From an uncultured Ruminococcus sp. (GTDB taxonomy: Bacteria > Bacillota > Clostridia > Oscillospirales > Ruminococcaceae), in contig CACZFN010000026.1 of assembly GCA_902780505.1 (NCBI GenBank), positions 56,354 to 120,353 on the forward strand: a stretch of 64,000 nt of DNA, written 5' to 3'. The notes under the pieces were generated by a model, which searched no databases, was not told the origin of the DNA, and saw only the letters and a program-made list of their open reading frames with translations. The translations under genes were made by a program, and so were the position numbers. Positions 49,443 to 64,000 of this stretch are shown here, piece after piece. Position 1 is the first letter of the stretch. Every line of letters begins with the position of its first letter.

Positions 49443-49871
49443 TTATTTGCAGTTATTTTTCTTGTCAAATGACGGGTTGAATGCGTAGAAGTTTTTGGAG
49501 TCGAGCATATCCGTCACGATACGCAGGCTTTCACCAAAACGCTGGAAGTGTACTATCTCACGCTCACGCAGGAACTTGATAGGATCCCTTACATCGGGAT
49601 CGTCTGTCAGGCGAAGGATATTGTCGTAGGTGACACGGGCTTTCTGTTCAGCAGCGAGGTCTTCGTTCAAGTCAGCTATCGGATCACCGAGCGACTGGAA
49701 ATACGCCGCCGTAAACGGCACCCCTGAAGCCGCCACAGGGTAAATGCCCGTTGTATGGTCAACAAAATACGCATCAAACCCGCCGTCCTTTATCTCCTTG
49801 GGTGTGAGATCGCGTGTCAGCTGGTAGATTATGGCCGATACCATTTCCATGTGGGAGAGTTCGTTTGCACC
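49443..49871 (-). pseudogene. cotJC: Spore coat protein CotJC / manganese catalase, 3' part only (disrupted by element)
   Basis: The minus-strand frame encodes the C-terminal part of a CotJC-type manganese catalase: ELSHMEMVSAIIYQLTR, FVDHTTGIYPVAASGVPF, EQKARVTYDNILRL, EREIVHFQRFGESLR and FYAFNPSF. Metal ligands in ELSH, EQKAR and EIVH are kept. Homology begins at about 49871 (codons for GANELSH); further upstream an in-frame TAA appears within a few codons and the serine recombinase gene begins its 3' end 29 bp away. Roughly the first third of the protein, including the first metal-binding Glu, is missing. The missing 5' part should lie at the other end of the element, beyond this window. 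Confidence 0.85.
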
Positions 49872-49900
49872 ACAATGTTATAATATAACATTTTTCAGCC
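49855..49900. other. Probable left attachment site (attL) of the prophage
   Basis: The cotJC homology ends at about 49871 and element sequence begins. AATGTTATA-A-TATAACATT (49874-49892) is a perfect 9-bp inverted repeat directly at the boundary, as expected for a recombinase arm site. The crossover dinucleotide cannot be fixed without the right end. Confidence 0.6.
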
Positions 49901-51387
49901 TATAGATCAAGCGTTACGCTTACAGTTATAGGCATCTGTCTGTATCTGTTTGACCTGTCTCTGAAATAGTCGATCCTTAGTACACTATCGGTAAGCAGCT
50001 TGTTGCGCTCGGCAGGGGTGATCGTGTCATAGCTTTCAAGCAGCTCGGTAAGGTTTTTTATCACTCTGTCGTAATTTGTCGTTTTGTTTGCCTTTGAGCT
50101 TATAAGAGCTGCCTCACTTTCAAGTGCCTCGCGTTTTTCCTTTAGCGCTATCTGGCGGTCGATGAATATTTCCTGAGTGTATACCTCCTGCTCTAACAGA
50201 TCATACAGCTTGTTCTGCTGCGCTCTTACCTTTTCGAGCTCGGCATTGATTTTTCTTAGCTTGTTTATTTCGGTGGTGTTGTCTTGTTTCCTGCTGCGCA
50301 CTAAGATAAGTCCGTTAAGCCCGTTTCTAAGTTCCTCTAAAATGTATTCCTCCACAACTCTGTACGGCGCTGAGGATACCTTGCATAAGGTGTTTGCGCA
50401 TATCATATAATCTTCGCCCCTGCGATTTCTGCGCAGTATCATAGCCCTTCCGCATTCGCGGCATTTGAGAATGTGAGCGAATGGGTTTGCAAGCTCAAAT
50501 TTTATCGGATTTTTAGGGTTCTTGCCGGTGCGTTCCTGCGCGGCAGCCCACATTTCCTCGGGGATCAGCGCATCATGCTTTCCCTTAAAAAGCTGACCGT
50601 CGGTACGGGGGCGCTCTGTCACCACTTTTCCGTCAACCACCTTTTTGCGCTGCGCTCTTACGCCCCAGCGTATCTTACCGCAGTAGACAGGGTTTGATAA
50701 TATTTCCCTCACGCTTGCTGTCGGGAAAAGCTCACCGCCGTTTCGGGGCTTATATCCTAATTCCGTAAGCTTTTTTGCAATGACACCTGCGGTCAGACCT
50801 TCATTTACATACATATCATATATGAGTTTTACGGCATCGGCCTCGTCATTCGCTTTGAGCGTGTAGCCCTTGCCGTTTTCTATTTTTACCTTGTCATAGC
50901 CATACGGTGCAAATCGCCCGAGGAAATTCCCTTCCTTAGCCGATGCGAGCCTGCCAGCCTGCAAGCGCCTGTTTATCGTCTTGTATTCACGCCTGCTCAT
51001 AAATAAGCCAAACTCAAAGTACTCCTCATCAAATTCGTTGAGCGGGTCGTAGACCTTTGCGGGGGTTATGATAAGCGTTCCCGTCAGCTTGAAGGCACGA
51101 GCCACAACGCCCTGGTCGATGCTGTCGCCACGGGCAAGGCGCTCAAGCTCCATTACAAGCACGCCCTCCCACCTGCCTGCCTCGACATCGGCAAGAAGCT
51201 TTTGCATCTGCGGGCGTGCAGCTATCGTTTCACCGCTGACTATTTCTTCGTAAATGCCGCCTATCTCGTAGCCGCCCTTTTGCGACAGCTCGGTGAGTAT
51301 TCTCTTGTGGCGACTCAGCGTTTCGCCCTCGCCCAGAGCTTCAAGCTCCTTGTCGGCTCGTGATTTTCTGAGGTACATAGCGTACAT
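49900..51387 (-). CDS. Large serine recombinase (phage integrase)
   Basis: 495-aa site-specific recombinase. The catalytic Ser9 is in MYLRKSRAD; the resolvase domain (about 1-140) also shows VLVMELERLARGD. The recombinase domain (about 150-290) has GRFAPYGYDK and NPVYCGKIRWG, a zinc ribbon (CRECG and CANTLC) lies at about 312-345, and a coiled coil at about 370-440 should control directionality. AAGGAG lies before the ATG. The gene reads toward the attachment site, 29 bp from the cotJC homology. Its start lies inside the 3' end of the DUF2085 gene. Confidence 0.94.
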   Translation of the reverse strand: MYAMYLRKSRADKELEALGEGETLSRHKRILTELSQKGGYEIGGIYEEIVSGETIAARPQMQKLLADVEAGRWEGVLVMELERLARGDSIDQGVVARAFKLTGTLIITPAKVYDPLNEFDEEYFEFGLFMSRREYKTINRRLQAGRLASAKEGNFLGRFAPYGYDKVKIENGKGYTLKANDEADAVKLIYDMYVNEGLTAGVIAKKLTELGYKPRNGGELFPTASVREILSNPVYCGKIRWGVRAQRKKVVDGKVVTERPRTDGQLFKGKHDALIPEEMWAAAQERTGKNPKNPIKFELANPFAHILKCRECGRAMILRRNRRGEDYMICANTLCKVSSAPYRVVEEYILEELRNGLNGLILVRSRKQDNTTEINKLRKINAELEKVRAQQNKLYDLLEQEVYTQEIFIDRQIALKEKREALESEAALISSKANKTTNYDRVIKNLTELLESYDTITPAERNKLLTDSVLRIDYFRDRSNRYRQMPITVSVTLDL

Positions 51388-51806
51388 GGTGAGTCAGCTC
51401 CTTTCTGTAGTTTTCCCCCCTCGGTGATCGTTGGCGGGGGAAAATCGTCCTTTTTGAGTCTTCCGATAATCGCAGATAATAGCGCAATGATAGTGCTCAA
51501 AAAACCATATCCAAACATAACTCCTGTGATAAAGCGCTTTGTGTTTGTAGATTCATAGCTGCTCACAAATTGAACTGAGCCGTCAATTACCAACGGCAGC
51601 ATAATAATTATTCCAAAGCAGGGATGCGTTTTGGTTTTTCCAAAAAACAGCCTAGCCCCTTCACCGCAGAGCATACCAAAGCAACGGGCACATATAGGCA
51701 TTTGCCATCCTTTTATGAAAAATGAACGCTCGGGTATCTGATGACAGCCCCAGTATTTGCTGCCAAGCTCCATTGATTTGATCCAAATCCTAGTTTTTGT
51801 ATCCAT
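51315..51806 (-). CDS. DUF2085 family membrane protein in prophage
   Basis: 163 aa. CHQIPERSFFIKGWQMPICARCFGML is spread over residues 21-46 and is the DUF2085 signature (Cys/His pairs that may bind metal). Two to three hydrophobic segments follow between about 60 and 115. The last 25 residues are read from sequence that also encodes the recombinase start (73-bp overlap) and look unstructured. The ATG overlaps the zinc-ribbon gene stop. Such proteins are not standard phage functions; it may be a lysogenic conversion gene. Function unknown. Confidence 0.8.
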   Translation of the reverse strand: MDTKTRIWIKSMELGSKYWGCHQIPERSFFIKGWQMPICARCFGMLCGEGARLFFGKTKTHPCFGIIIMLPLVIDGSVQFVSSYESTNTKRFITGVMFGYGFLSTIIALLSAIIGRLKKDDFPPPTITEGGKLQKGADSPCTLCTSENHEPTRSLKLWARAKR

Positions 51807-52132
51807 TACATTTTAAACTTGTTGCCACAGTTGCTGCAAGCCCAGTAATGATCAGTCTTAGTCTTGCCTGCTCCACATAAACCGAACAGACCGCAAAGAC
51901 AGAGCTTCCATAACTTTACGCCCTTGCCTTGCACATCACTAATTGCCTGTAGATTATCGCTTCCGCACCTGGGACATCTTACTCCTTTTGGTGATGTTGT
52001 GTTTACAACAACTGTCTGCTGTGGCTGCTGTGCCTGTTGTGGTTGTGCCTGAGGAAGCGGAATTGAGGGGTCATTACCACATCTGGGACAAATTCCTCCA
52101 TCATACTGTAAACCGCATTTCTGACAATACAT
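51806..52132 (-). CDS. Zinc-ribbon protein in prophage
   Basis: 108 aa with three zinc-ribbon knuckle sets: CQKCGLQYDGGICPRCG at the N-terminus, CPRCGSDNLQ in the middle and CSNCGNKF at the C-terminus, plus a Gln/Pro-rich linker (about 27-40) and a short Cys/Leu/Gly-rich hydrophobic part (LCLCGLFGLCGAG). AAGGAGG precedes the ATG. It is translationally coupled to the DUF2085 gene, so the two may work together. Function unknown. Confidence 0.8.
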   Translation of the reverse strand: MYCQKCGLQYDGGICPRCGNDPSIPLPQAQPQQAQQPQQTVVVNTTSPKGVRCPRCGSDNLQAISDVQGKGVKLWKLCLCGLFGLCGAGKTKTDHYWACSNCGNKFKM

Positions 52133-52153: not shown

Positions 52154-52873
52154 TTAAAATTTCCTTTTACATTCAATTACTTTCCCGACTATCCTTATCC
52201 GCCTTGTTTCACCATTTTTAAACTCTCTCGGGGGATAATATGGGTTGAAGCTTATCAGGGTTATACTGTTATTGCTAAGCTCTATTTGTTTAATAAGCCC
52301 GTCCTCCTCATCAACGATGACTACACCGTAATCGCCGCTTTCAACAGAAGGCTGCAAGCGCACAAGAACAAGGTCACCTTCGAGGATCATCGGCTCCATG
52401 CTGTCACCTCTGACCTTAAGCCACATATACTCATACCCGTCAAGGATAGTTTCCTTATCGACCAGCTCATAGCCGACTATCTCAGTTTCCGCAAGGCAGG
52501 TATAGCCTGCGGCAACGTTACCGACTATTGGAACGGGAACCATGTTTTGTGGGGCGTATTGTTCAGAGGCTTCTATCATCTCGTCGATAAAGGCATCTTT
52601 TTCTAGTACTTGTGAAGATGTTTTATCAGGGTTTATAAGAGTTTTAACAAACTTGTGCGTTTTAATTGCTTCGTCGCTCCAGCCCATAAGGTAAGCGGGG
52701 GTGGTGTCAAGAGCTTTGGCGAGTTCTATTATCATTGGACGTGGAACATCTCTATCTCCATTCTCTATTTTAGCAATAGAAGAGCGTGATTTATAGCCAA
52801 GCCTTTGTGCTAATTCTTCTTGTGTAATGCCTCTTTCTTTTCTTTTTTTATTAACTCTTTCTCCGAAAGTCAT
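52154..52873 (-). CDS. CI/LexA-like prophage repressor (HTH plus S24 peptidase)
   Basis: 239-aa lysogeny repressor. The helix-turn-helix is at about 5-60 (GITQEELAQRLGYKSRSSIA). The C-terminal S24 self-cleavage domain has the Ala-Gly cut site in NVAAGY near 120, the catalytic Ser in VRGDSMEPMI near 158 and Lys in DGLIKQIEL near 195. It should hold the prophage silent and be inactivated by RecA filaments after DNA damage. GGAGGTGATAG precedes the ATG. Its promoter overlaps operator-like sites facing the Cro-like gene. Confidence 0.94.
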   Translation of the reverse strand: MTFGERVNKKRKERGITQEELAQRLGYKSRSSIAKIENGDRDVPRPMIIELAKALDTTPAYLMGWSDEAIKTHKFVKTLINPDKTSSQVLEKDAFIDEMIEASEQYAPQNMVPVPIVGNVAAGYTCLAETEIVGYELVDKETILDGYEYMWLKVRGDSMEPMILEGDLVLVRLQPSVESGDYGVVIVDEEDGLIKQIELSNNSITLISFNPYYPPREFKNGETRRIRIVGKVIECKRKF

Positions 52874-53104: not shown

Positions 53105-53311
53105 ATGACGGATACGCATATGCTTATGAGTTTAGTAAATGAAAAAGGTGTGACAAAAGTTGCTCTTGCTGCACATTTAGGTCTTTCCAGGCAGGGACTT
53201 GATAATAAACTCAATAATAAATATGAGTTTAAACAGTCCGAAATAGAGAAGATAACCAAGTTTCTCGGGCTGACCAAGGAGCAGGAAAGATGTATTTTTT
53301 TTGCTGCGTAG
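53105..53311 (+). CDS. Cro/Arp-like small HTH protein
   Basis: 68-aa DNA-binding protein. VTKVALAAHLGLSRQGLDNK is a helix-turn-helix; the rest is a short helical bundle. It is the first gene of the rightward early operon, in the place of Cro. GGGGGTG lies about 11 nt before the ATG. It should compete with the repressor at the operators. Confidence 0.8.
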   Translation: MTDTHMLMSLVNEKGVTKVALAAHLGLSRQGLDNKLNNKYEFKQSEIEKITKFLGLTKEQERCIFFAA

Positions 53312-53780: not shown

Positions 53781-53996
53781 ATGGAAGAAAACAAAAGGCT
53801 CTTCGTCGAAAAGCTCGGCAGCCTTATCAAACGGCAGACAAGGGCAGGGCGGAACATAAAGGAATTTCGTTATGAAGTGTCTTTGGCAGCCGAGCGTGTC
53901 GTGATAGTCTTTTATGGCGGCTGCACCAAGACCGTAGACATCACCGCCGACAGCTGCCTGGCTATTATGCACGACATCTGCAAGGCGCTGTCATAG
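53781..53996 (+). CDS. Small prophage early protein, unknown
   Basis: 71 aa, not recognised; mixed alpha/beta with a basic N-terminal half (VEKLGSLIKRQTRAGRNIKE) and FRYEVSLAAERVVIVFYGG. AAGGAGGTGA lies 5 nt before the ATG at 53781. Cytoplasmic by its composition. Confidence 0.6.
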   Translation: MEENKRLFVEKLGSLIKRQTRAGRNIKEFRYEVSLAAERVVIVFYGGCTKTVDITADSCLAIMHDICKALS

Positions 53997-54039
53997 GACA
54001 ATCGTACACATGAATAAAATAACGCAGGAGGTGTTATTT

Positions 54040-54303
54040 ATGCCAAGACTGAAAAGTGAGACATTAAGCGTGAAGGAGTATATCGAGGGCGAGTACAAGG
54101 TCAGGGAGGTCGTTAAGATCATCTACACCGAAAGCGGGCGGCCTTACGAGATACACGGCAAAACGACAAGGCCGCTGCACCCCGATCCTGCAAAGGTCAA
54201 AAGGGTGATAGAAACGGCTACAAGGATAGCCGAGAATGTAGAGCGGCGGCTTGCGGAGGCTGAGGAGAAAGCAAGGCAGCAGGCTTCGGCAGCAACTGAT
54301 TAG
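54040..54303 (+). CDS. Small prophage early protein, unknown
   Basis: 87 aa, not recognised. Basic N-terminal half with a YKVREVVKIIYTESGRPYE strand region, and a long C-terminal helix (ATRIAENVERRLAEAEEKA). GGAGGTG lies 6 nt before the ATG at 54040, which excludes the ATG at 54010. Confidence 0.6.
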   Translation: MPRLKSETLSVKEYIEGEYKVREVVKIIYTESGRPYEIHGKTTRPLHPDPAKVKRVIETATRIAENVERRLAEAEEKARQQASAATD

Positions 54304-54675: not shown

Positions 54676-55983
54676 ATGAAGATGATAAGACGTGACAGTG
54701 AGCTGCCGATCGAGCTGTTAAAGCCGCACCCGAAGAACCCGAGAAAGGACGTAGGGGACGTGACGGAACTTGCAGAAAGCATAAAGGCAAACGGGATATT
54801 CCAGCCGCTGACTGTATTGTCCGGCGACTGCATAGACGGCTACACAGTTGTCATCGGGCACAGGAGGCTTGCGGCGGCAAAGCTTGCAGGGCTTAAAAAA
54901 GTGCCTTGCAATGTGGCTGAGATGACAGAGCAGGAACAGATAAGCACGATGCTGCTTGAAAATATGCAGCGAAATGACTTAACTGTCTACGAACAGGCAC
55001 AGGGCTTTCAGATGATGCTTGACCTGGGCGAGACCGAGCAGAGCATAGCGGAAAAGACGGGGCTTTCAAAAGCGACTGTAAGGCACCGTGTAAAGCTTCT
55101 GGAGCTGGATCGTGAGGAGTTTGAAAAGAGCCAGGAGAGACAGCCCACAATGGCCGACTACATAGAGCTGGAGAAGATAAGCGATCCGAAAGAGCGCAAC
55201 AAGGCTTTGAAGTCGATCGGAACAGACAACTTCAAATGGTCGGTACAGAATGCCAAAAGGACTATCAAGGAGCGTGAAGCTCATAAGGAATGGGACAGGC
55301 TTTTCAAGGAACTCGGCATTAAAAAGGTAGAGCCTAAACTCGTTGATAAGAAAGAGGAGCTGTTTGAGGACCGATATGTTTCCTATGATGATGCTCCGGC
55401 GAAAAAGGACATCAGCAGCATCAAAAAGGCGGTGAAGGAAGGCAGTGTCAGCGGGTTCACCGTGAGATACAGCAGCGTTCACGTTCTCTGCGGCGACAAG
55501 GTCAAAAGAAGGAAAGTCAAGTCGGCCGAAGAGAAGGCAGCAGACGAAAGACTCAGGCAGATCAAAAAGCTTGAAGCACAGGCAAAGGAGCTGCGAGAAG
55601 GCTTTGTGAGAAACTACACAGGCGGGCACGAGGATATCGTGATACGCGCCGCGATCGAGGCTCGGGCGAGCCTTTACACCTGGAGCGACAGGGATAAGAA
55701 GCTGAAGGACTATCTCGGCATCAAGGAGAACGAGGTGAAGGGCTCTGGGCGGTATGCATATCTGATGAAGCGGCACCCCGAGATCGTGCTGCTCGGGTAT
55801 CTTGCGCTGCATTATGAGAGCGAAAGCTACAGGATAAAGCTCGCCGACGGGAACGGCAGCTACACAAAGAACCCAACGCTCGAAGCGTGGTATGAGGTGC
55901 TTACGAAGCTCGGCTACCGCATCAGCGAGGAAGAAACGCGGCTACTCGACGGAACACACGAATGCTTTAAGGAGGAAACCTAA
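54676..55983 (+). CDS. ParB/Srx-domain phage protein
   Basis: 435 aa. The N-terminal ParB domain is clear: PIELLKPHPKNPRKD, GIFQPLTVL, YTVVIGHRRLAAAKLAGL (GxRR box), then LLENMQRNDLTVYEQA and a helix-turn-helix around TEQSIAEKTGLSKATVRHRV. The C-terminal 200 residues are helical, basic and not recognised. In phages such proteins regulate or help DNA replication; a partition role would need a ParA partner, which is not seen. AGGAGTGAG precedes the ATG. Confidence 0.88.
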   Translation: MKMIRRDSELPIELLKPHPKNPRKDVGDVTELAESIKANGIFQPLTVLSGDCIDGYTVVIGHRRLAAAKLAGLKKVPCNVAEMTEQEQISTMLLENMQRNDLTVYEQAQGFQMMLDLGETEQSIAEKTGLSKATVRHRVKLLELDREEFEKSQERQPTMADYIELEKISDPKERNKALKSIGTDNFKWSVQNAKRTIKEREAHKEWDRLFKELGIKKVEPKLVDKKEELFEDRYVSYDDAPAKKDISSIKKAVKEGSVSGFTVRYSSVHVLCGDKVKRRKVKSAEEKAADERLRQIKKLEAQAKELREGFVRNYTGGHEDIVIRAAIEARASLYTWSDRDKKLKDYLGIKENEVKGSGRYAYLMKRHPEIVLLGYLALHYESESYRIKLADGNGSYTKNPTLEAWYEVLTKLGYRISEEETRLLDGTHECFKEET

Positions 55984-57255
55984 ATGTCAGTAAAAATAAA
56001 CACACTTGAATTTGAAAACGTAAAACGCATAAAAGCGGTGGCGCTCACGCCGTCTAAGACGGGGCTGACGATCATTGGCGGAGATAATGCGCAGGGCAAG
56101 ACGAGCGTGCTTGACTCTATCGCCTGGGCGCTCGGGGGAGATAAGTTCAAGCCCTCAGCCCCTAAGCGTGAGGGCTCGTTCATTGAGCCGCACCTGAAGG
56201 TCACGCTCGATAACGGCATTATAGTCGAGCGCTCAGGCAAGAACAGTGCCTTAAAGGTCATTGACAGCTCAGGCAACAAGGGCGGCCAGCAGCTGCTTAA
56301 TACATTTATCGAGAGCTTTGCGCTTGATCTGCCGAAGTTTATGAATCAAAGCTCAAAGGACAAGGCACAGACGCTGCTTAAAATCATCGGCGTGGGGGAC
56401 AAGCTGTACGAACTGGAGAACGAGGAAAAGAACCTCTACGATCAGCGCACGGCTATCGGGCAGATAGGCGATAAGAAAAAGAAATACGCTGAGGAGATGC
56501 CGGTATATACCGACCTGCCGAATGAGGAAATATCCGTGTCCGAGCTTATCAGGCAGCAGCAGGATATACTTGCTAAAAACGGCGAGAACGAGCGTTTAAG
56601 GCAGAACAAGTACAGATTGCAAGCGGAGAGAAACGCCCTGAATGAAAAGGTGGAAATGCTCGAATGTGAGCTTGCAAGGTACCGTGATGAGCTGCGCACC
56701 AAAACAGAGCAGCTTGATGCTGCAAGCAAGACGGCAGCCGAGCTGCACGATGAAAGCACCGCCGAAATAGAAAAGAATATCCGCACTATCGAGGAAACTA
56801 ACGCTAAGATAAGAGCTAACATAGACCGTGAGCGTGCCGAGCGTGAGGCTGCCGATTACCGTGAGCAGTATGAGTATCTGACCGAACAGATCGAGAGTGT
56901 AAGATCGCAAAAGCGTGATCTGTTAAACGGCGCAGATTTACCGCTGCCCGGGCTTTCGGTAGAGCAGGGCGAGCTTATATATAAGGGGCAGCGCTGGGAC
57001 TGCATGAGCGGCTCTGAGCAGCTTATCGTGGCAACGTCGATAGTAAGGCGGCTCAATCCTTCCTGCGGCTTTGTGCTGCTTGACAAGCTTGAACAGCTTG
57101 ACATGAAAACACTTGATGATTTCGGGCGGTGGCTTGATAAAGAAGGCTTGCAGGCAATAGCTACAAGAGTATCAAAAGGCGATGAATGCTCTGTCATTAT
57201 AGAGGACGGAGTTTCTCAGACAAAACAAAAAGAATGGAAGGCAGGTCAGTTTTAA
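55984..57255 (+). CDS. SMC/SbcC-like AAA ATPase (phage recombination)
   Basis: 423 aa with split ATPase halves joined by a coiled coil. Walker A GDNAQGKTSV is near 33-42; the coiled coil covers about 175-310; the C-terminal half has the ABC-like signature CMSGSEQLIVATSIV and a Walker B strand CGFVLLDKLEQLD. The residue after the Walker B Asp is Lys where SMC/Rad50 proteins have the catalytic Glu; the next Glu is two residues further on. It begins directly at the ParB-like stop. It probably works with the Sak4-like ATPase on phage DNA ends. Confidence 0.82.
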   Translation: MSVKINTLEFENVKRIKAVALTPSKTGLTIIGGDNAQGKTSVLDSIAWALGGDKFKPSAPKREGSFIEPHLKVTLDNGIIVERSGKNSALKVIDSSGNKGGQQLLNTFIESFALDLPKFMNQSSKDKAQTLLKIIGVGDKLYELENEEKNLYDQRTAIGQIGDKKKKYAEEMPVYTDLPNEEISVSELIRQQQDILAKNGENERLRQNKYRLQAERNALNEKVEMLECELARYRDELRTKTEQLDAASKTAAELHDESTAEIEKNIRTIEETNAKIRANIDRERAEREAADYREQYEYLTEQIESVRSQKRDLLNGADLPLPGLSVEQGELIYKGQRWDCMSGSEQLIVATSIVRRLNPSCGFVLLDKLEQLDMKTLDDFGRWLDKEGLQAIATRVSKGDECSVIIEDGVSQTKQKEWKAGQF

Positions 57256-58340
57256 TGAATATTACAAGAGGAAAGGTTCAAAAAGCAAAAAAGGTAGTTA
57301 TCTACGGCCCCGAGGGGATAGGCAAATCGACATTCGCTTCACAGTTTCCGAAGCCGGTATTCATAGACACAGAGGGCAGCACAAACGGTATGGACATAGT
57401 TCGTACTGACAAGCCTACCAGCTGGGAACTTTTAAAATCCTACGTCAGAGAGCTGGGTAACAGCGGCGAGTTTCAGACGATCATCATTGACACCATAGAC
57501 TGGGCAGAACAGCTTTGCATTGAGTCGATATGTGCGGCGCATCAGAAGAAAGGTATAGAAGATTTCGGCTACGGCAACGGCTATGTGTATGAGAAAGAGG
57601 AGATGGGCAAGTTTCTTGGCGTCTTGCAGGATATAGTTGATAAAGGCATAAACGTGGTTCTTACCGCTCACGCTCAGCTTAGAAAATTCGAGCAGCCCGA
57701 CGAGCTTGGCGCTTACGACAGGTGGGAGCTGAAGCTCGGCAAGAAGACAAGCTCGCAGATCTCGCCGCTTGTCAAGGAATGGGCAGATATGGTGCTGTTT
57801 GCAAACTACAAGACCTTTTCGGTGGCGAGTGAGACCGACAATAACGGCAAGGGCAAGAAGTTCAAGGCTCAGGGCGGTGAGAGAGTTATGTACACCTCAC
57901 ATCACCCCTGCTGGGACGCTAAGAACCGTGACGGGCTTCCGCCCGAGATGCCTTTTGACTATAAGGGCATAGCGCATCTCTTTGGAAGCATCACACAGCA
58001 GGCATCACCGACCGCTGCGCCTGAGCCAAAAATGCAGGCTTCACCCGAGCCTGATCCTACATCTCAGCCTGAGCCTGTTGAGGACAAGCCGGAGCTGAAG
58101 CAGAGTGCAGCTGAACTGCTCAACATTCCCGAAGCACTGCCGCAGGCTCTTAAAGATCTTATGCGTGAGTTCAAGGTCGATGAATCAGACGTAAGGCTTG
58201 CGGTGTCGCAGAGAGGATATTTCCCGTATGAAACACCCGTTACAAACTATCCGGCCGATTTTGTTCAGGGCTGCCTTATCGGGGCATGGGATCAGCTATA
58301 CAATAAATACATCAAGCCCAATCAGGACGTACCCTTTTAG
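57255..58340 (+). CDS. Sak4-like phage ATP-binding protein (AAA_24)
   Basis: 361 aa. RecA-fold ATPase: Walker A GPEGIGKST at residues 18-26, Walker B TIIIDTIDW near 78, and LTAHAQLRKFE. This is the AAA_24/Sak4 type used as a single-strand annealing or RecA-like recombinase in phages. The C-terminal third has a Pro/Glu/Gln linker (about 265-305) and a small helical end. The ATG at 57255 overlaps the previous stop; the longer frame is not used. Confidence 0.85.
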   Translation: MNITRGKVQKAKKVVIYGPEGIGKSTFASQFPKPVFIDTEGSTNGMDIVRTDKPTSWELLKSYVRELGNSGEFQTIIIDTIDWAEQLCIESICAAHQKKGIEDFGYGNGYVYEKEEMGKFLGVLQDIVDKGINVVLTAHAQLRKFEQPDELGAYDRWELKLGKKTSSQISPLVKEWADMVLFANYKTFSVASETDNNGKGKKFKAQGGERVMYTSHHPCWDAKNRDGLPPEMPFDYKGIAHLFGSITQQASPTAAPEPKMQASPEPDPTSQPEPVEDKPELKQSAAELLNIPEALPQALKDLMREFKVDESDVRLAVSQRGYFPYETPVTNYPADFVQGCLIGAWDQLYNKYIKPNQDVPF

Positions 58341-58531: not shown

Positions 58532-59047
58532 ATGAACGAAGATTTTAAAGAGTACGGCTGGGAAGACGAGATATCAGACGAGGGCAGTGAGTTTGTGCTG
58601 CTGCCTGAGGGTGATTATGATTTTACCGTGAGCAAGATCGAGAGGGGCAGGCACCCGGGTTCGGAAAAGCTGCCGCCCTGCAACAAGGCTATAGTTACCC
58701 TCACGGTCTTTGGCGAAAGTGACAGCATAGACATCACCGAGAACCTGATGCTTTGCAACAAAATGGAATGGAAGCTCTCGCAGTTTTTCCTGTCCCTCGG
58801 CATGAAAAAGCACGGCGAGCCGCTTAGAATGAACTGGACAGGCGCTGTCGGCAAAAAGGGCAAGTGCCATGTGTATGTGGATAATTATAAGAATAAAAAC
58901 GGCGAGGACAGGCAGTCCAACAAGATAAAGAAATACTACGCCTACGATGAGCAGGTGCAGACGGTGCAGCCGAACGCCCAGCAGACCTATAACACACAGT
59001 ATGCACAGCCCGCAGCAGCGCCTACATGGAAGGCGGGGACGTTCTGA
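58532..59047 (+). CDS. DUF669 family phage protein
   Basis: 171 aa. LLPEGDYDFTVSKIERG, the NKMEWKLSQFFLSLGMK helix and WTGAVGKKGKCHVYVDNYKN are DUF669-like. The family is a standard part of phage recombination modules, next to Sak4 and helicase as here, and may bind single-stranded DNA. The C-terminus is a Gln-rich flexible tail. AGGAGGTA lies 9 nt before the ATG at 58532, so the long upstream frame extension is not coding. Confidence 0.82.
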   Translation: MNEDFKEYGWEDEISDEGSEFVLLPEGDYDFTVSKIERGRHPGSEKLPPCNKAIVTLTVFGESDSIDITENLMLCNKMEWKLSQFFLSLGMKKHGEPLRMNWTGAVGKKGKCHVYVDNYKNKNGEDRQSNKIKKYYAYDEQVQTVQPNAQQTYNTQYAQPAAAPTWKAGTF

Positions 59048-60657
59048 TGAATTTAAGACCTTATCAGGAGGACGCAAAGGCCGCAGTGCTGAATGAATGG
59101 GACGAGGGCAGACAAAAAACGCTGCTCGTCCTGCCTACGGGCACCGGCAAGACGATAGTGTTCTCGGCTATTACCGAGGAATGTGTAAGAAACGGCGAGA
59201 GAGTGCTTATCCTCGCCCATCGGGGGGAACTGCTCGATCAGGCGGCGGACAAGCTCTATAAGACAACAGGTCTTAAAGCATCGGTCGAAAAGGCAGAGCA
59301 AAGCTGCCTCGGTGAGTGGTACCGTGTGGTAGTAGGCTCGGTGCAGACGCTTATGCGTGAAAAACGCCTTGCAGGCTTTTCAAGGGACTACTTCGACACT
59401 ATCATCATTGATGAAGCCCACCACGCTATATCCGACAGCTACACAAGGGTGCTTGAACACTTTTGTAATGCTAAGGTGCTCGGCGTTACAGCTACGCCCG
59501 ACAGAGGAGATATGAAGAACTTAGGGGCTGTGTTTGAGAGCCTTGCTTATGAATACACCCTCCCCAAAGCGATAAAGGAGGGCTATCTTTCGCCCATAAA
59601 GGCGGTAACTATCCCGCTTAGACTCGATCTGTCAAACGTAACGATGCAGTCGGGCGACTTCAAGGCGAGCGATATCGACACCGCCCTTGATCCCTACCTT
59701 TATCAGATAGCTGATGAGATGAAAAAATACTGCAAGGACAGGAAAACGGTAGTGTTCCTGCCGCTTATCAAGACCTCGCAGAAGTTCAGGGATATCCTTA
59801 ACAGTAAGGGCTTTCGTGCTGCCGAGGTAAACGGCGAGAGCGATGACAGAGCCGAGGTACTTGCAGACTTTGACCGGGGCAGATACAACGTGCTTTGCAA
59901 CTCTATGCTGCTCACCGAGGGGTGGGACTGCCCGTCAGTTGATTGCATTATAGTGCTGCGTCCTACCAAGGTCAGGTCGCTTTACTGTCAAATGGTGGGC
60001 AGAGGCACAAGGCTCTGCGAGGGCAAGGATCATCTGCTGCTGCTTGACTTTTTGTGGCACACCGAGCGGCACGAGCTGTGCCGCCCTGCGCATCTTATCT
60101 GCGAAAGCCCCGAGGTGGCGCAGAAGATGACCGAGAATATGGCCGAAAGTGCAGGGCTTGCTATGGACATTGAGCAGGCAGAAAAGCAGGCAAGTGAAGA
60201 TGTTGTGGCGCAGCGTGAGGAAGCACTTGCCAAGACTTTAAGTGAGATGAAGAAACGCAAGAGAAAGCTTGTGGATCCTCTCCAGTACGAGATGAGCATA
60301 CAGGCAGAGGACTTGTCCTCTTATGTGCCCGCTTTCGGGTGGGAGTGTTCACCGCCCTCTGACAAGCAGAAGGCGGCACTTGAAAAAGCAGGCATTTTCC
60401 CGGACGAGATAGAGAACGCAGGCAAGGCAAAGCTGCTGCTTGAACGCCTTGCAAAAAGACGTGCCGAGGGGCTTACAACACCAAAGCAGATAAGGCTTTT
60501 AGAGAGTAAGGGCTTTATGCACGTAGGTGAGTGGAACTTTGACGCTGCAAGCAGTATGATATCAAGAATAAGTGCCAACAACTGGCGTGTCCCTTACGGT
60601 GTGGATCCTAAGAGCTACAAGCCCGAACCGGCAGGAGAGATAAATTATGAATGGTGA
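59047..60657 (+). CDS. Phage DEAD/DEAH-box (SF2) helicase
   Basis: 536-aa SF2 helicase. Motifs: LRPYQEDA (Q-like), LPTGTGKT (I), LILAHRGELLDQA (Ia), IIDEAHHAI (II), LGVTATPDRGD (III), VVFLPLIKTSQK (IV region) and QMVGRGTRLCEG (VI). The C-terminal 150 residues are helical, ending in a SAP-like or basic region. It unwinds or remodels DNA in phage replication. The ATG overlaps the DUF669 stop. Confidence 0.9.
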   Translation: MNLRPYQEDAKAAVLNEWDEGRQKTLLVLPTGTGKTIVFSAITEECVRNGERVLILAHRGELLDQAADKLYKTTGLKASVEKAEQSCLGEWYRVVVGSVQTLMREKRLAGFSRDYFDTIIIDEAHHAISDSYTRVLEHFCNAKVLGVTATPDRGDMKNLGAVFESLAYEYTLPKAIKEGYLSPIKAVTIPLRLDLSNVTMQSGDFKASDIDTALDPYLYQIADEMKKYCKDRKTVVFLPLIKTSQKFRDILNSKGFRAAEVNGESDDRAEVLADFDRGRYNVLCNSMLLTEGWDCPSVDCIIVLRPTKVRSLYCQMVGRGTRLCEGKDHLLLLDFLWHTERHELCRPAHLICESPEVAQKMTENMAESAGLAMDIEQAEKQASEDVVAQREEALAKTLSEMKKRKRKLVDPLQYEMSIQAEDLSSYVPAFGWECSPPSDKQKAALEKAGIFPDEIENAGKAKLLLERLAKRRAEGLTTPKQIRLLESKGFMHVGEWNFDAASSMISRISANNWRVPYGVDPKSYKPEPAGEINYEW

Positions 60658-62848
60658 TTTACTAAAAATACTTGAATACATAGATCCGTCCTCGTGCAAT
60701 TATCACGAATGGCTCACAGTCGGAATGGCTCTCAAGGAGGAGGGCTACTCAGCAAGCGACTGGGAGAACTGGTCGCTGCGTGATGCCGCACGCTATCACA
60801 AAGGAGAATGTGCAGCCAAATGGAACAGTTTTAACGGCACAGGCAGCCCGGTCACAGGCGGCAGCATAGTACAGCTTGCTAAGGACAGAGGGCTGACCTT
60901 AGGCTCGGGAGAGTTCAAGGAACTTGACTGGGACAGCGAGATCAATTTTGAGGGCGAGGATATGCCGATAGCCACAGGTGAGGGCATACCGGTAACTGAG
61001 CCCCGTAACTTTGATCCTGTGAGTGAGATAGTGACCTATCTCGAAACGTTGTTTGAAGCGGGCGAGAATGTAGGCTACGTCACCGAAACATGGGAGAGTG
61101 ATGACAAGGGCAAGCGCAAGTTTCTGCCCACAAAGGGAGCATGGGACAGAACGGCAGGCGAACTCATTGCAGCACTGCACAGCTGTGATGGTGACATCGG
61201 TGCAGTGTTCGGTGACTACAATCCCGAGGCGGGGGCGTGGATCCGCTTTAACCCTTTAGACGGCAAGGGTGTCAAGAACGAGAACGTTACCGACTACCGT
61301 TACGCTCTGGTAGAGAGCGACAGTATGCCAATAGAGCAGCAAAACGCAGTTATAAGGGAGCTGGAACTGCCCGTAGCGATACTTGTTTACAGCGGCGGCA
61401 AGAGCCTGCACGCTATAGTCAGGATAGATGCACCCACATACGAGGAGTACCGCAAAAGAGTAGATTTCCTCTACAAGGTATGCAAGGATAACGGGCTTGA
61501 CATCGACAGACAGAACCGCAACCCTTCACGCCTGAGCCGTATGCCCGGCGTGACCAGAAACGGCAGAAAGCAGTTTATCATAGATAAGAACATCGGGCGT
61601 GAGAGCTTTACTGAGTGGAAGAACTATATCGAGAGTATAAACGACGATCTGCCTGATGAGGAGAGTCTTGAAAGCGTATGGAATTTCCTTCCCGAGCTTA
61701 GCCCCCCTTTGATCGACGGTGTGCTGCGGCAGGGACACAAGATGCTTATAGCAGGACCCTCAAAGGCAGGCAAGAGCTTTGCACTCATTGAGCTTTGCAT
61801 AGCACTCGCAGAGGGTGTCAAGTGGCTGGGCTTTGAATGTGCAAAGGGGCGTGTGCTGTATGTCAACTTAGAGCTTGACAGAGCATCGTGTCTGCACCGC
61901 TTTAAGGACGTGTATACAGCTATGTGCTTACCACCTAAGCACCTTGACAGGATAGATATATGGAACCTCAGAGGGCGCACGGTGCCGCTTGATCAGCTCG
62001 CACCAAAGCTTATAAGGCGTGCAGACAAAAAGGACTACAAGGCTATAATCATAGATCCTATCTACAAGGTCATAACGGGTGATGAAAACTCGGCTGACCA
62101 AATGGCACGCTTTTGCAATCAGTTTGATAAGATATGCACAGAGCTTGGAACGGCGGTCATCTACTGTCATCATCATAGCAAGGGCAGCCAGAGCGGCAAG
62201 CGGTCAATGGACAGAGCGTCAGGCTCGGGAGTGTTCGCAAGAGATCCTGATGCACTGCTTGATCTTACCGAGCTGGAGATAAACGAGGGACTGCTGACAC
62301 AGCAGGCAAACAAACTCATCTGCGATATAGCCTACAAGTGGCTTGAACGCTTCAACAAGGACGTTCTGGTGTCACAGGACGAGCGTGTAACACCCTCAGC
62401 GATACTCGACATAGCAAGAGACAGTTTACAGCACAAGACCTTTAGCCTTTTGCAAGATGAGATAGCAGCAGCCAAGCGCAGCCTGACCTCACGCACAGCG
62501 TGGCGAATAGAGGGCACACTGCGAGAGTTCCCCAAATTCAAGCCGCTTAATATGTGGTTTGAATATCCGATACATAAAGCAGACAGCGAGGGCGTGCTTG
62601 CAGACTGCGCTGCCGACGGAGAGTTTGATCCGAGGAAAAATCTCGGGAGGAAGAAGAACGCCAAGGAGAGAAAGACCGAGAGAAAGGAAAGCATTGATAC
62701 AGCTTTCAGCGGAGTAGAGCAGGGTGGAAAATGCAAGATAAGTGAGCTTGCAGATTATCTCGGTGTCACAGAAAAAACAGTACGCAGCAGGCTAAAAGAG
62801 CACGGCGGTTTCTGGATAGACGAGGGAGAATGCGGCTTGAAGGCATAA
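60647..62848 (+). CDS. Phage primase-helicase (PriCT-2, AEP-like, RepA-like AAA)
   Basis: 733 aa with three parts. The N-terminal PriCT-like region is YHEWLTVGMALKEEGYS (about 18-80). A middle region has features of archaeo-eukaryotic primases, including the S-x-H motif in YSGGKSLHAIVRID (about 240-255). From about 350 comes a RepA/KaiC-type ATPase: Walker A GPSKAGKSF, Walker B YKAIIIDPIYK and CHHHSKGSQSG. The C-terminus ends in a winged-helix-like part (ISELADYLGVTEKTVRSRL). It probably starts replication at the repeat cluster directly behind it. Confidence 0.82.
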   Translation: MNGDLLKILEYIDPSSCNYHEWLTVGMALKEEGYSASDWENWSLRDAARYHKGECAAKWNSFNGTGSPVTGGSIVQLAKDRGLTLGSGEFKELDWDSEINFEGEDMPIATGEGIPVTEPRNFDPVSEIVTYLETLFEAGENVGYVTETWESDDKGKRKFLPTKGAWDRTAGELIAALHSCDGDIGAVFGDYNPEAGAWIRFNPLDGKGVKNENVTDYRYALVESDSMPIEQQNAVIRELELPVAILVYSGGKSLHAIVRIDAPTYEEYRKRVDFLYKVCKDNGLDIDRQNRNPSRLSRMPGVTRNGRKQFIIDKNIGRESFTEWKNYIESINDDLPDEESLESVWNFLPELSPPLIDGVLRQGHKMLIAGPSKAGKSFALIELCIALAEGVKWLGFECAKGRVLYVNLELDRASCLHRFKDVYTAMCLPPKHLDRIDIWNLRGRTVPLDQLAPKLIRRADKKDYKAIIIDPIYKVITGDENSADQMARFCNQFDKICTELGTAVIYCHHHSKGSQSGKRSMDRASGSGVFARDPDALLDLTELEINEGLLTQQANKLICDIAYKWLERFNKDVLVSQDERVTPSAILDIARDSLQHKTFSLLQDEIAAAKRSLTSRTAWRIEGTLREFPKFKPLNMWFEYPIHKADSEGVLADCAADGEFDPRKNLGRKKNAKERKTERKESIDTAFSGVEQGGKCKISELADYLGVTEKTVRSRLKEHGGFWIDEGECGLKA

Positions 62849-63065: not shown

Positions 63066-63467
63066 GTGACTGAATTTTTCATGCCCATGATGCCGCCGAC
63101 GGTGACGCATCAGGAAAAGAAAATAAACACCCGGTGGAAAAAGCCTGTGGTCTATGAGCCGCCCGAGCTTCAGGACGCAAGGGCAAAGCTCACAGCACAC
63201 CTTGCCGCCCACAGACCAAAGCTGCCGTATGAGGGCGGTGTAAGGCTTACGGTCAAGTGGCTGTTCTGTGATAAGTCGGGCAGACATCAGGACGGCGAGT
63301 ACAAGACCGACAAGCCCGATACCGATAATCTTATCAAGCTGCTAAAGGACTGTATGACAGCACTCGTTTTCTGGAAAGATGATGCGATTGTCGCAAGCGA
63401 GCATAACGAAAAGTTCTGGGTAAGAGAGAGCCCGCCCGGGATATATGTGAGGATAGATAAGCTATGA
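63066..63467 (+). CDS. rusA: RusA-like Holliday junction resolvase
   Basis: 133-aa endonuclease that cuts four-way junctions. KPDTDNLIKLLKDCMTALV followed by FWKDDAIVAS gives the acidic active site (Asp pairs) of RusA. The GTG at 63066 has AGGAGAG 6 nt upstream. The N-terminal FFMPMMPPTVTHQ is the expected first strand. It fits the replication/recombination module. Confidence 0.9.
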   Translation: MTEFFMPMMPPTVTHQEKKINTRWKKPVVYEPPELQDARAKLTAHLAAHRPKLPYEGGVRLTVKWLFCDKSGRHQDGEYKTDKPDTDNLIKLLKDCMTALVFWKDDAIVASEHNEKFWVRESPPGIYVRIDKL

Positions 63468-63862: not shown

Positions 63863-64000
63863 ATGACAAACAAAGACGCATATATAAGGCTGAAAAGGGT
63901 CGAGGTCGAAGGGTTGATAGATGTAGTTGATAATAGACTTATACTGCCGATAGCTATTGAAGCAATCGGCAAACAAGTGCCGATGAAACCCGAATATGAG
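63863..64000 (+). CDS. Prophage protein, N-terminal part only (cut by window end)
   Basis: A frame opens at the ATG at 63863 with AGGGGG upstream and stays open for 46 codons to the window edge (MTNKDAYIRLKRVEVEGLID at the start). The part seen is charged and mixed alpha/beta. Not recognised. Confidence 0.55.
   Translation, partial: MTNKDAYIRLKRVEVEGLIDVVDNRLILPIAIEAIGKQVPMKPEYE

Follow-up and report, generated by a model that had tools for sequence, protein, structure and literature searches.

The spore-coat catalase gene cotJC is split at codon 65 by a temperate prophage in the window, the stretch of 64,000 nucleotides analyzed here (G000:C26:56354-120353; contig C26 terminates at window base 64000), and the two parts can be repaired exactly on paper. 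A mobile element interrupts the gene, a recombinase gene lies at the end of the element, and joining the halves restores the reading frame. Judged from this anatomy and from the skin and SPbeta elements, the arrangement is best read as one in which excision during sporulation would probably rebuild cotJC in the mother cell.

The 3' part of cotJC (codons 65-203; 49443..49862, minus strand) is host DNA that matches PF05067 at positions 58-197. Its frame is retained, as the initial annotation had stated, with no earlier in-frame stop before the one at 49443. The end of this part had been placed at about 49871; the crossover is in fact at a GAA core, codon Glu65, at 49860..49862 on the minus strand, and phage DNA begins at 49863. 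A whole-genome search of G000 for the Mn-catalase family returned two matches, profile positions 58-197 in the window and 1-67 on contig C32, and neither a further cotJC copy nor the complete second copy that would have made this part a mere leftover. The missing 5' part occupies C32:22320-22517, 195 bp short of the end of the 22.7-kb contig, where the gene order is cotJA, cotJB (CotJB assigned by Pfam), the cotJC start and then foreign DNA; the core recurs there at C32:22512-22514. The 5' part ends with ...GATGTGGGGACGGAGGAA, after which the sequence is foreign, and the coding strand of the 3' part in the window reads from phage sequence into GAACTCTCCCACATGG....

Joined at GAA, the halves encode an open CotJC of 203 amino acids with no frameshift, in which PF05067 spans residues 1-182 and the motif TDVGTEELSHMEMV is carried at the join. 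Glu65 is a predicted metal-binding glutamate, whose role as a ligand we presume. The reciprocal join at GAA, TTATAACATTGTGGTGCAAACGAATATGTGCCATAATGTTATAA, combines the phage arm of the attachment site at 49863..49883 (minus strand) with the C32 arm into a 44-bp attP dyad that is centered on the core and matches at 16 of 22 positions. This dyad is the best among 830 joins that share two bases (the runner-up has 15), and an equally good one arose in 1 of 20000 letter shuffles. Because the joining script finds more than 20 possible in-frame joins of the two halves, an open frame alone is little proof; the GAA join is set apart by the attP dyad together with the restored CotJC motif. The dyad is also the main evidence that the ends of C26 and C32, which the assembly leaves unjoined, flank one element. 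With both halves found, open and rejoinable, and with the phage arms forming an attP dyad, the original proposal of a prophage inside cotJC holds, the 5' fragment lying behind cotJA-cotJB on a separate contig.

The stretch beginning at 49863 and reaching the end of the contig carries the genes of a temperate phage. The leftward block (minus strand) starts with the large serine recombinase that had been noticed beside the cotJC part, an integrase of 495 amino acids (49900..51387) with Resolvase, Recombinase and zinc-ribbon domains (PF00239, PF07508 and PF13408; phrog_95 integrase, 3e-96). It continues with a DUF2085 membrane protein (51315..51806; PF09858, 2.3e-27), a zinc-ribbon protein (51806..52132; weak zinc-ribbon matches, all below curated cut-offs) and a CI-like repressor with an S24 peptidase domain (52154..52873; Pfam and phrog matches). 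The rightward block (plus strand) opens with a Cro-like protein (DUF739; 53105..53311), followed by a promoter-like box, ATAGGACA-N13-ATAAAAT (53993..54020), in which TAGGACA begins 46 bp ahead of the next start codon, and by a candidate recombination directionality factor of 87 amino acids (54040..54303), so named for the box, its position and its counterpart in locus L007. Downstream, domain and phrog matches identify a ParB-like protein (54676..55983), a phrog_1499 ATPase (55984..57255) and, near the end, a RusA-like resolvase (63066..63467); phrog matches alone identify a Sak4-like single-stranded DNA annealing protein (57186..58340), a DNA helicase (59026..60657) and a phrog_2597 primase (60647..62848). 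The contig ends at 64000 within the prophage, whose middle section was not found. A terminase homologue elsewhere in G000 was rejected as the missing phage part, as it sits in a separate short phage remnant amid host genes (G000:C26:26628-33551, outside the window). At the C32 end, 198 bp of phage DNA past the 5' part (L004:2515-2712) contain a reading-frame end, ...LYVTGWVNKGDIK and stop, that looks like a lysin. The attP core of the window element gave no match in viral_contigs.

Two other genomes with Ruminococcus names carry related elements. In Ruminococcus sp. Marseille-P6503 (G007), the integrase is 54% identical to that of the window and the cotJC halves flank 39.6 kb; the ten proteins scanned include a phrog_1499 protein, a helicase and a primase like the early genes of the window, as well as terminase, portal, scaffold, head and tail proteins. 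The integrase adjoins the 5' half in G007 and the 3' half in the window. In Ruminococcus sp. RGIG2923 (G002, which matches L127), the neighbor of the cotJC 3' part is an integrase 86% identical to that of the window, and the 5' part was not found in this assembly, which is 72% complete. The complete phage modules between the cotJC halves of G007, and the gene block that the window integrase shares with the CI repressor, favor the principal alternative, in which the element is an ordinary temperate phage and cotJC a neutral attachment site. Excision would then follow induction, spores would lack the catalase and the box would be a phage early promoter. We consider this explanation possible but rather unlikely, and the evidence that bears on it further is given below.

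The split at codon 65 recurs widely. Among the best 80 of 544 loci with related integrases in named genomes, cotJC fragments occur at 58 and a piece broken at the codon-65 site at 55. In 49 of these 55, the piece lies no more than 600 bp from the integrase stop, as a 3' half in 26 and a 5' half in 23. Whole-genome searches of 30 genomes picked from the 58 located cotJC pieces on both sides in every case. Another full-length Mn-catalase gene is present in 8 of these 30 hosts, which counts against mother-cell excision. Six of the 30 have a cotJC divided into three pieces, and some of these pieces match weakly; three-piece genes were seen in L202, L173 and L179 and in G009, G012, G014, G027, G028 and G032, and the pieces of three-part genes remain open. 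The joining script was applied to 30 pairs (25 genomes and 5 loci); after matching phase, it takes whichever dinucleotide shared by the two parts scores best in the range from codon 56 to codon 73. It gave an open join across codon 65 in 27 pairs, a count that tests only the existence of such a dinucleotide and the openness of the product. The product has 186-226 residues in 24 of the 27; among the open joins, divergence sets in near residue 176 for G018 and G019 and near residue 107 for L189. The three failures are G025 (no 5' match), G017 (5' match too short) and L183 (apparent frameshift).

The elements range from 3.5 kb in C. carboxidivorans, 4.7 kb in Tissierella praeacuta and 7.2 kb in Alkaliphilus transvaalensis to about 39-58 kb. 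The cotJC pieces stay open around elements as small as 3.5-10 kb and in three-part genes, which argues against an ordinary phage. IMG/VR loci with related integrases contain a cotJC piece in 12 of 80 cases, some of them near-copies. Of the 60 IMG/VR loci in which enough sequence follows the integrase, 10 have there an attP-like dyad that is still in one piece (14 or more of 22 positions, with GA or TC at the center), compared with 0 of 60 shuffled sequences, which suggests excised or free forms. The cotJC 3' parts of L138, L139, L142, L154, L155, L163, L186 and L066 cease to align near codon 175-178, perhaps at one more insertion site. In 12 related loci from one clade, dN/dS is about 0.02-0.3 for the cotJC pieces and about 0.08-0.35 for the integrase, with many high dS values. 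Since the integrase dS is mostly lower than the cotJC dS, the elements are younger than the split of their hosts or have moved between hosts, and the low dN/dS of the pieces is partly older than the insertion, which counts against restoration by excision. As proof of selection after insertion, the ratio was set aside.

How common is a divided cotJC in the host family? The survey covered 118 evenly drawn genomes at least 90% complete, of which 87 have an Mn-catalase match; the match in G086 is too weak for cotJC, leaving 86 cotJC-bearing genomes. By a hand count among the matches listed, cotJC is split in at least 33 of the 86, with two or more listed pieces in 32 and one in G044, and at least 6 of these 33 genomes carry, among the same matches, an intact cotJC besides. 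Among the 33 are G134, whose parts lie far apart on a single contig with their order wrong, G145, with reversed order and no recombinase seen between the parts, and G110, with the parts on opposite strands. These three genes would not be restorable by simple excision, and this counts against mother-cell excision, as do L183 and the second cotJC copy of G055, both of which appear frameshifted.

The break points in the host family concentrate at profile positions of about 30, 65 and 150. Further breaks lie near codons 100 and 135 in L202, L179 and L173, loci in which a second, different serine recombinase is present; a single cotJC gene may sometimes be the target of two recombinase groups. Pairwise BLAST of 14 adjacent recombinases yields four groups that share 21-31% identity with one another. 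Identity within groups is 45% between the two members of the window type at codon 65, 39-44% at codon 30, 39-92% at codons 100/135/150 and 46-57% in a second group at codon 62. An NCBIfam scan of ten recombinases did not tell the sites apart, every match being below the cut-off. We read the break clusters as DNA coding for metal-ligand motifs, on CotJC ligand positions that we assume. Taking sites and groups together, we lean, with less assurance than for excision of the window element, toward cotJC being a shared landing site for at least four recombinase groups at codons of about 30, 62-65, 100 and 135-150, whose elements would form a class with excision tied to the mother cell through the box of the directionality factor.

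The remaining 22 of the 80 best integrase loci are without cotJC. The target is a LysM/GH18 gene in six (L132, L135, L143, L168, L178 and L190) and an asparagine synthase gene in six (L141, L151, L157, L160, L162 and L197); L169 is placed in the latter gene by its att sequence only, and nine loci have no assigned target. These calls follow the reading frame or its visible end, with Pfam applied to one synthase and two LysM/GH18 fragments. Both targets (yaaH/sleL and asnO) are presumably sporulation genes, and the presence of integrase relatives in genes that may serve sporulation speaks against an ordinary phage. In a quick integrase tree, the window falls among the cotJC rows, and the cotJC label changes 7 times, compared with 19.4 in shuffles.

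The same comparisons bear on two lesser explanations. That the cotJC parts are pseudogene remnants of an old insertion is very improbable: a few relatives do show apparent frameshifts or displaced parts, but both parts here are without stops and rejoin exactly, and the 27 open joins among relatives point the same way. An assembly artefact with unlinked or chimeric pieces, as the two contigs and the missing middle might suggest, is more improbable still, given that the two contig ends together form the attP dyad, that the same layout occurs on single contigs (examples are the 39.6-kb element of G007 and the 3.5-kb one in the chromosome of C. carboxidivorans) and that in a second species, too, a cotJC 3' part adjoins such an integrase, 86% identical.

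A family of small genes (about 43-80 residues, EFxIGNTxIKIxDDY...), compiled from the small ORFs of 15 elements and extended by profile search, is present in 54 and, after another round, 58 of the 80 best loci among 544 (E < 0.01). In 45 of 60 hits, this gene and the integrase are encoded on opposite strands, and the 3.5-kb element also carries it. The small gene perhaps encodes the recombination directionality factor. Pfam gave no match for the window ORF at 54040-54303 or for two members of the family. Against the family profile, the window ORF scores 3.5 bits, which is not significant but is the top score of 192 small ORFs in the window; against the L007 gene at the same box, it is 42% identical over 48 amino acids (E 3e-11, a single comparison).

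Sigma-E- or sigma-K-like patterns precede 17 of 60 small genes, compared with 36 of 791 control genes from the same loci; p-values for these patterns are optimistic because the rows are related, and one gene enters the count twice, as L128 and L267. Across all 61 small genes, the loose sigma-E pattern occurs 10 times (0 of 200 shuffles as high), the strict sigma-E pattern 4 times (5 of 200) and the sigma-K pattern 7 times (0 of 200), and this presence of mother-cell-type patterns over the whole set argues against an ordinary phage. The 17 genes of small elements, taken alone, are hardly enriched (loose sigma-E 3, 15 of 200; strict sigma-E 3, 5 of 200; sigma-K 1, 35 of 200), which counts against mother-cell control. 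Upstream of 77 integrases, the three patterns match 4, 4 and 1 times (65, 18 and 149 of 200 shuffles), with no enrichment, and none of the three lies ahead of the window candidate at 54040-54303. Ahead of spoIVA, the sigma-E pattern is absent from all seven genomes of the genus and is thus poorly calibrated there. The small-element and spoIVA results weaken the promoter argument.

The TAGGACA motif, picked after the upstream sequences had been inspected, lies 25-65 bp upstream of the small gene in 13 of 59 cases, compared with 0 of 1009 controls. An ATA follows exactly 13 bases past TAGGACA in 27 of the 36 places, counting near-copies, where the motif stands ahead of a ribosome-binding site and start codon; the window box at 53993 reads AATA, not CATA. 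TAGGACAA fits what we take to be a SpoIIID site. In genome G000, the exact box pattern has 2 occurrences, and box matches are fewer than those of the reversed control (16 and 7 compared with 28 and 40). No recognised sporulation gene follows the 12 of 23 box matches in G000 that were inspected by eye, which favors an ordinary phage; the box could be a promoter of the phage's own, and this too counts against mother-cell control. Sigma-H was rejected as its reader: some copies have GAAT at the -10 side, but the spacing is about 4-5 bases short by eye, in comparison with a C. difficile sigma-H motif table (PMC7438776). The text of PMC517825 holds no motif letters for SpoIIID.

The gene content of the host would fit sporulation. 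Spo0A and SpoIVA are matched in all seven genomes of the genus, G000 included, and SpoIIID in 5 of 7, also including G000, with all SpoIIID matches below the curated cut-off; the two misses are assemblies 76% and 58% complete. An intact cotJC is present in 5 of the 7. The sigK-like gene of G000 is in two parts, C24:14292-14636 (L117) and C15:42876-43238 (L118), with the alignment of the 5' part reaching residue 114 and that of the 3' part beginning at residue 107-108; this genome therefore seems to carry a skin-like element too. G001 (parts 59 kb apart, same strand) and G004 likewise have the gene divided in two, G002 and G003 carry it unbroken, and one part is listed for G006; none of the sigK-like matches in the seven genomes exceeds the curated cut-off, and a B. 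subtilis control is likewise below it. A -10 element of the form [CA]ATAG.ATA precedes cotJA in 6 of 6 genomes viewed, and we read it as sigma-K-like. A role of cotJC in sporulation of this host is presumed from homology, the C. difficile regulon and the cotJA promoters. The C. difficile CotJC homologues cotCB and cotD belong to the sigma-K regulon, whereas the third homologue, cotG, is assigned to the forespore factor sigma-G, which counts against mother-cell timing (PMC3789822). Mutants of cotCB and cotD are described as having reduced catalase activity and no significant coat defect, which also weighs against a need for restoration (PMC11222575), and B. subtilis mutants without CotJC in the coat reportedly show no apparent defect (PMC12122855), as an ordinary phage in a neutral site would allow.

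We nevertheless favor restoration of cotJC in the mother cell and propose the following sequence of events. A large serine integrase would have put a temperate phage into codon 65 of cotJC, a gene that is presumably dispensable during growth, so that the split would cost little. In the sporulating mother cell, the directionality factor (candidate 54040-54303) would be made from its own promoter and turn the integrase toward excision, and the cotJC halves would rejoin exactly to provide intact CotJC for the spore coat. The germ line would keep the prophage because the mother cell dies. We infer the sporulation-timed excision from the anatomy of the element and from skin, SPbeta, vfbin, gin and yin; likewise, the small gene would act as the directionality factor, and its box would be read by sigma-E/SpoIIID or sigma-K.

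If cotJC is indeed a shared landing site whose elements are excised in the mother cell, the coat catalase depends on DNA rearrangement in much of the gut Clostridia, and about a third of the cotJC-bearing species in the host family carry the gene in pieces. The cotJC fragments of many genomes are probably not pseudogenes. The intervening elements described earlier, as far as the sources consulted present them, are single cases in sigK, spsM, spoVFB, gerE and yabG. cotJC is split over and over in gut Clostridia and beyond, by elements with a common att dyad and small gene, so that the question of why phages occupy sporulation genes becomes testable by comparison. The recurring elements also provide a ready set of integrase, attP, attB and factor candidates. 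We rank highest the observation that one coat gene is cut repeatedly by several recombinase groups.

The splits described in this literature affect sigK, spsM, spoVFB, gerE and yabG (PMC10747680, PMC5595907, PMC4191935). The initial annotation had known of no such case in a Ruminococcus-like host, and among open-licence papers, preprints excluded and judged mostly by titles and abstract openings, none was found that reports a split cotJC; the main text of the recombinase survey by Durrant, in the portions consulted, mentions neither cotJC nor catalase (PMC10083194). The phi027 prophage of C. difficile, whose attR lies beside the CotJC-like gene cotG (PMC12122855, PMC11222575), was set aside as a precedent, since it adjoins cotG without splitting it, whereas the window prophage splits cotJC. 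The closest parallel is skin in sigK of B. subtilis and C. difficile, which likewise combines a large serine recombinase with an exactly split mother-cell gene and also has a small directionality factor. In C. difficile, skin excision is reported to be controlled by a directionality factor under sigma-E and SpoIIID, and CD1234 has a sigma-E promoter together with a motif resembling that of SpoIIID (PMC5025042). The target of skin is a sigma factor, whereas here it is a coat catalase interrupted by a phage end with replication genes, and excision is a prediction. SPbeta in spsM of B. subtilis is, as here, a phage within a spore-envelope gene, and rejoins that gene by precise excision (PMC4191935); the gene and the host class differ. 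The gin element in gerE, vfbin in spoVFB and yin in yabG likewise intervene in sporulation genes, and yin is described as unique to one strain (PMC5595907, PMC10747680), whereas the split of cotJC recurs across many species and at several sites.
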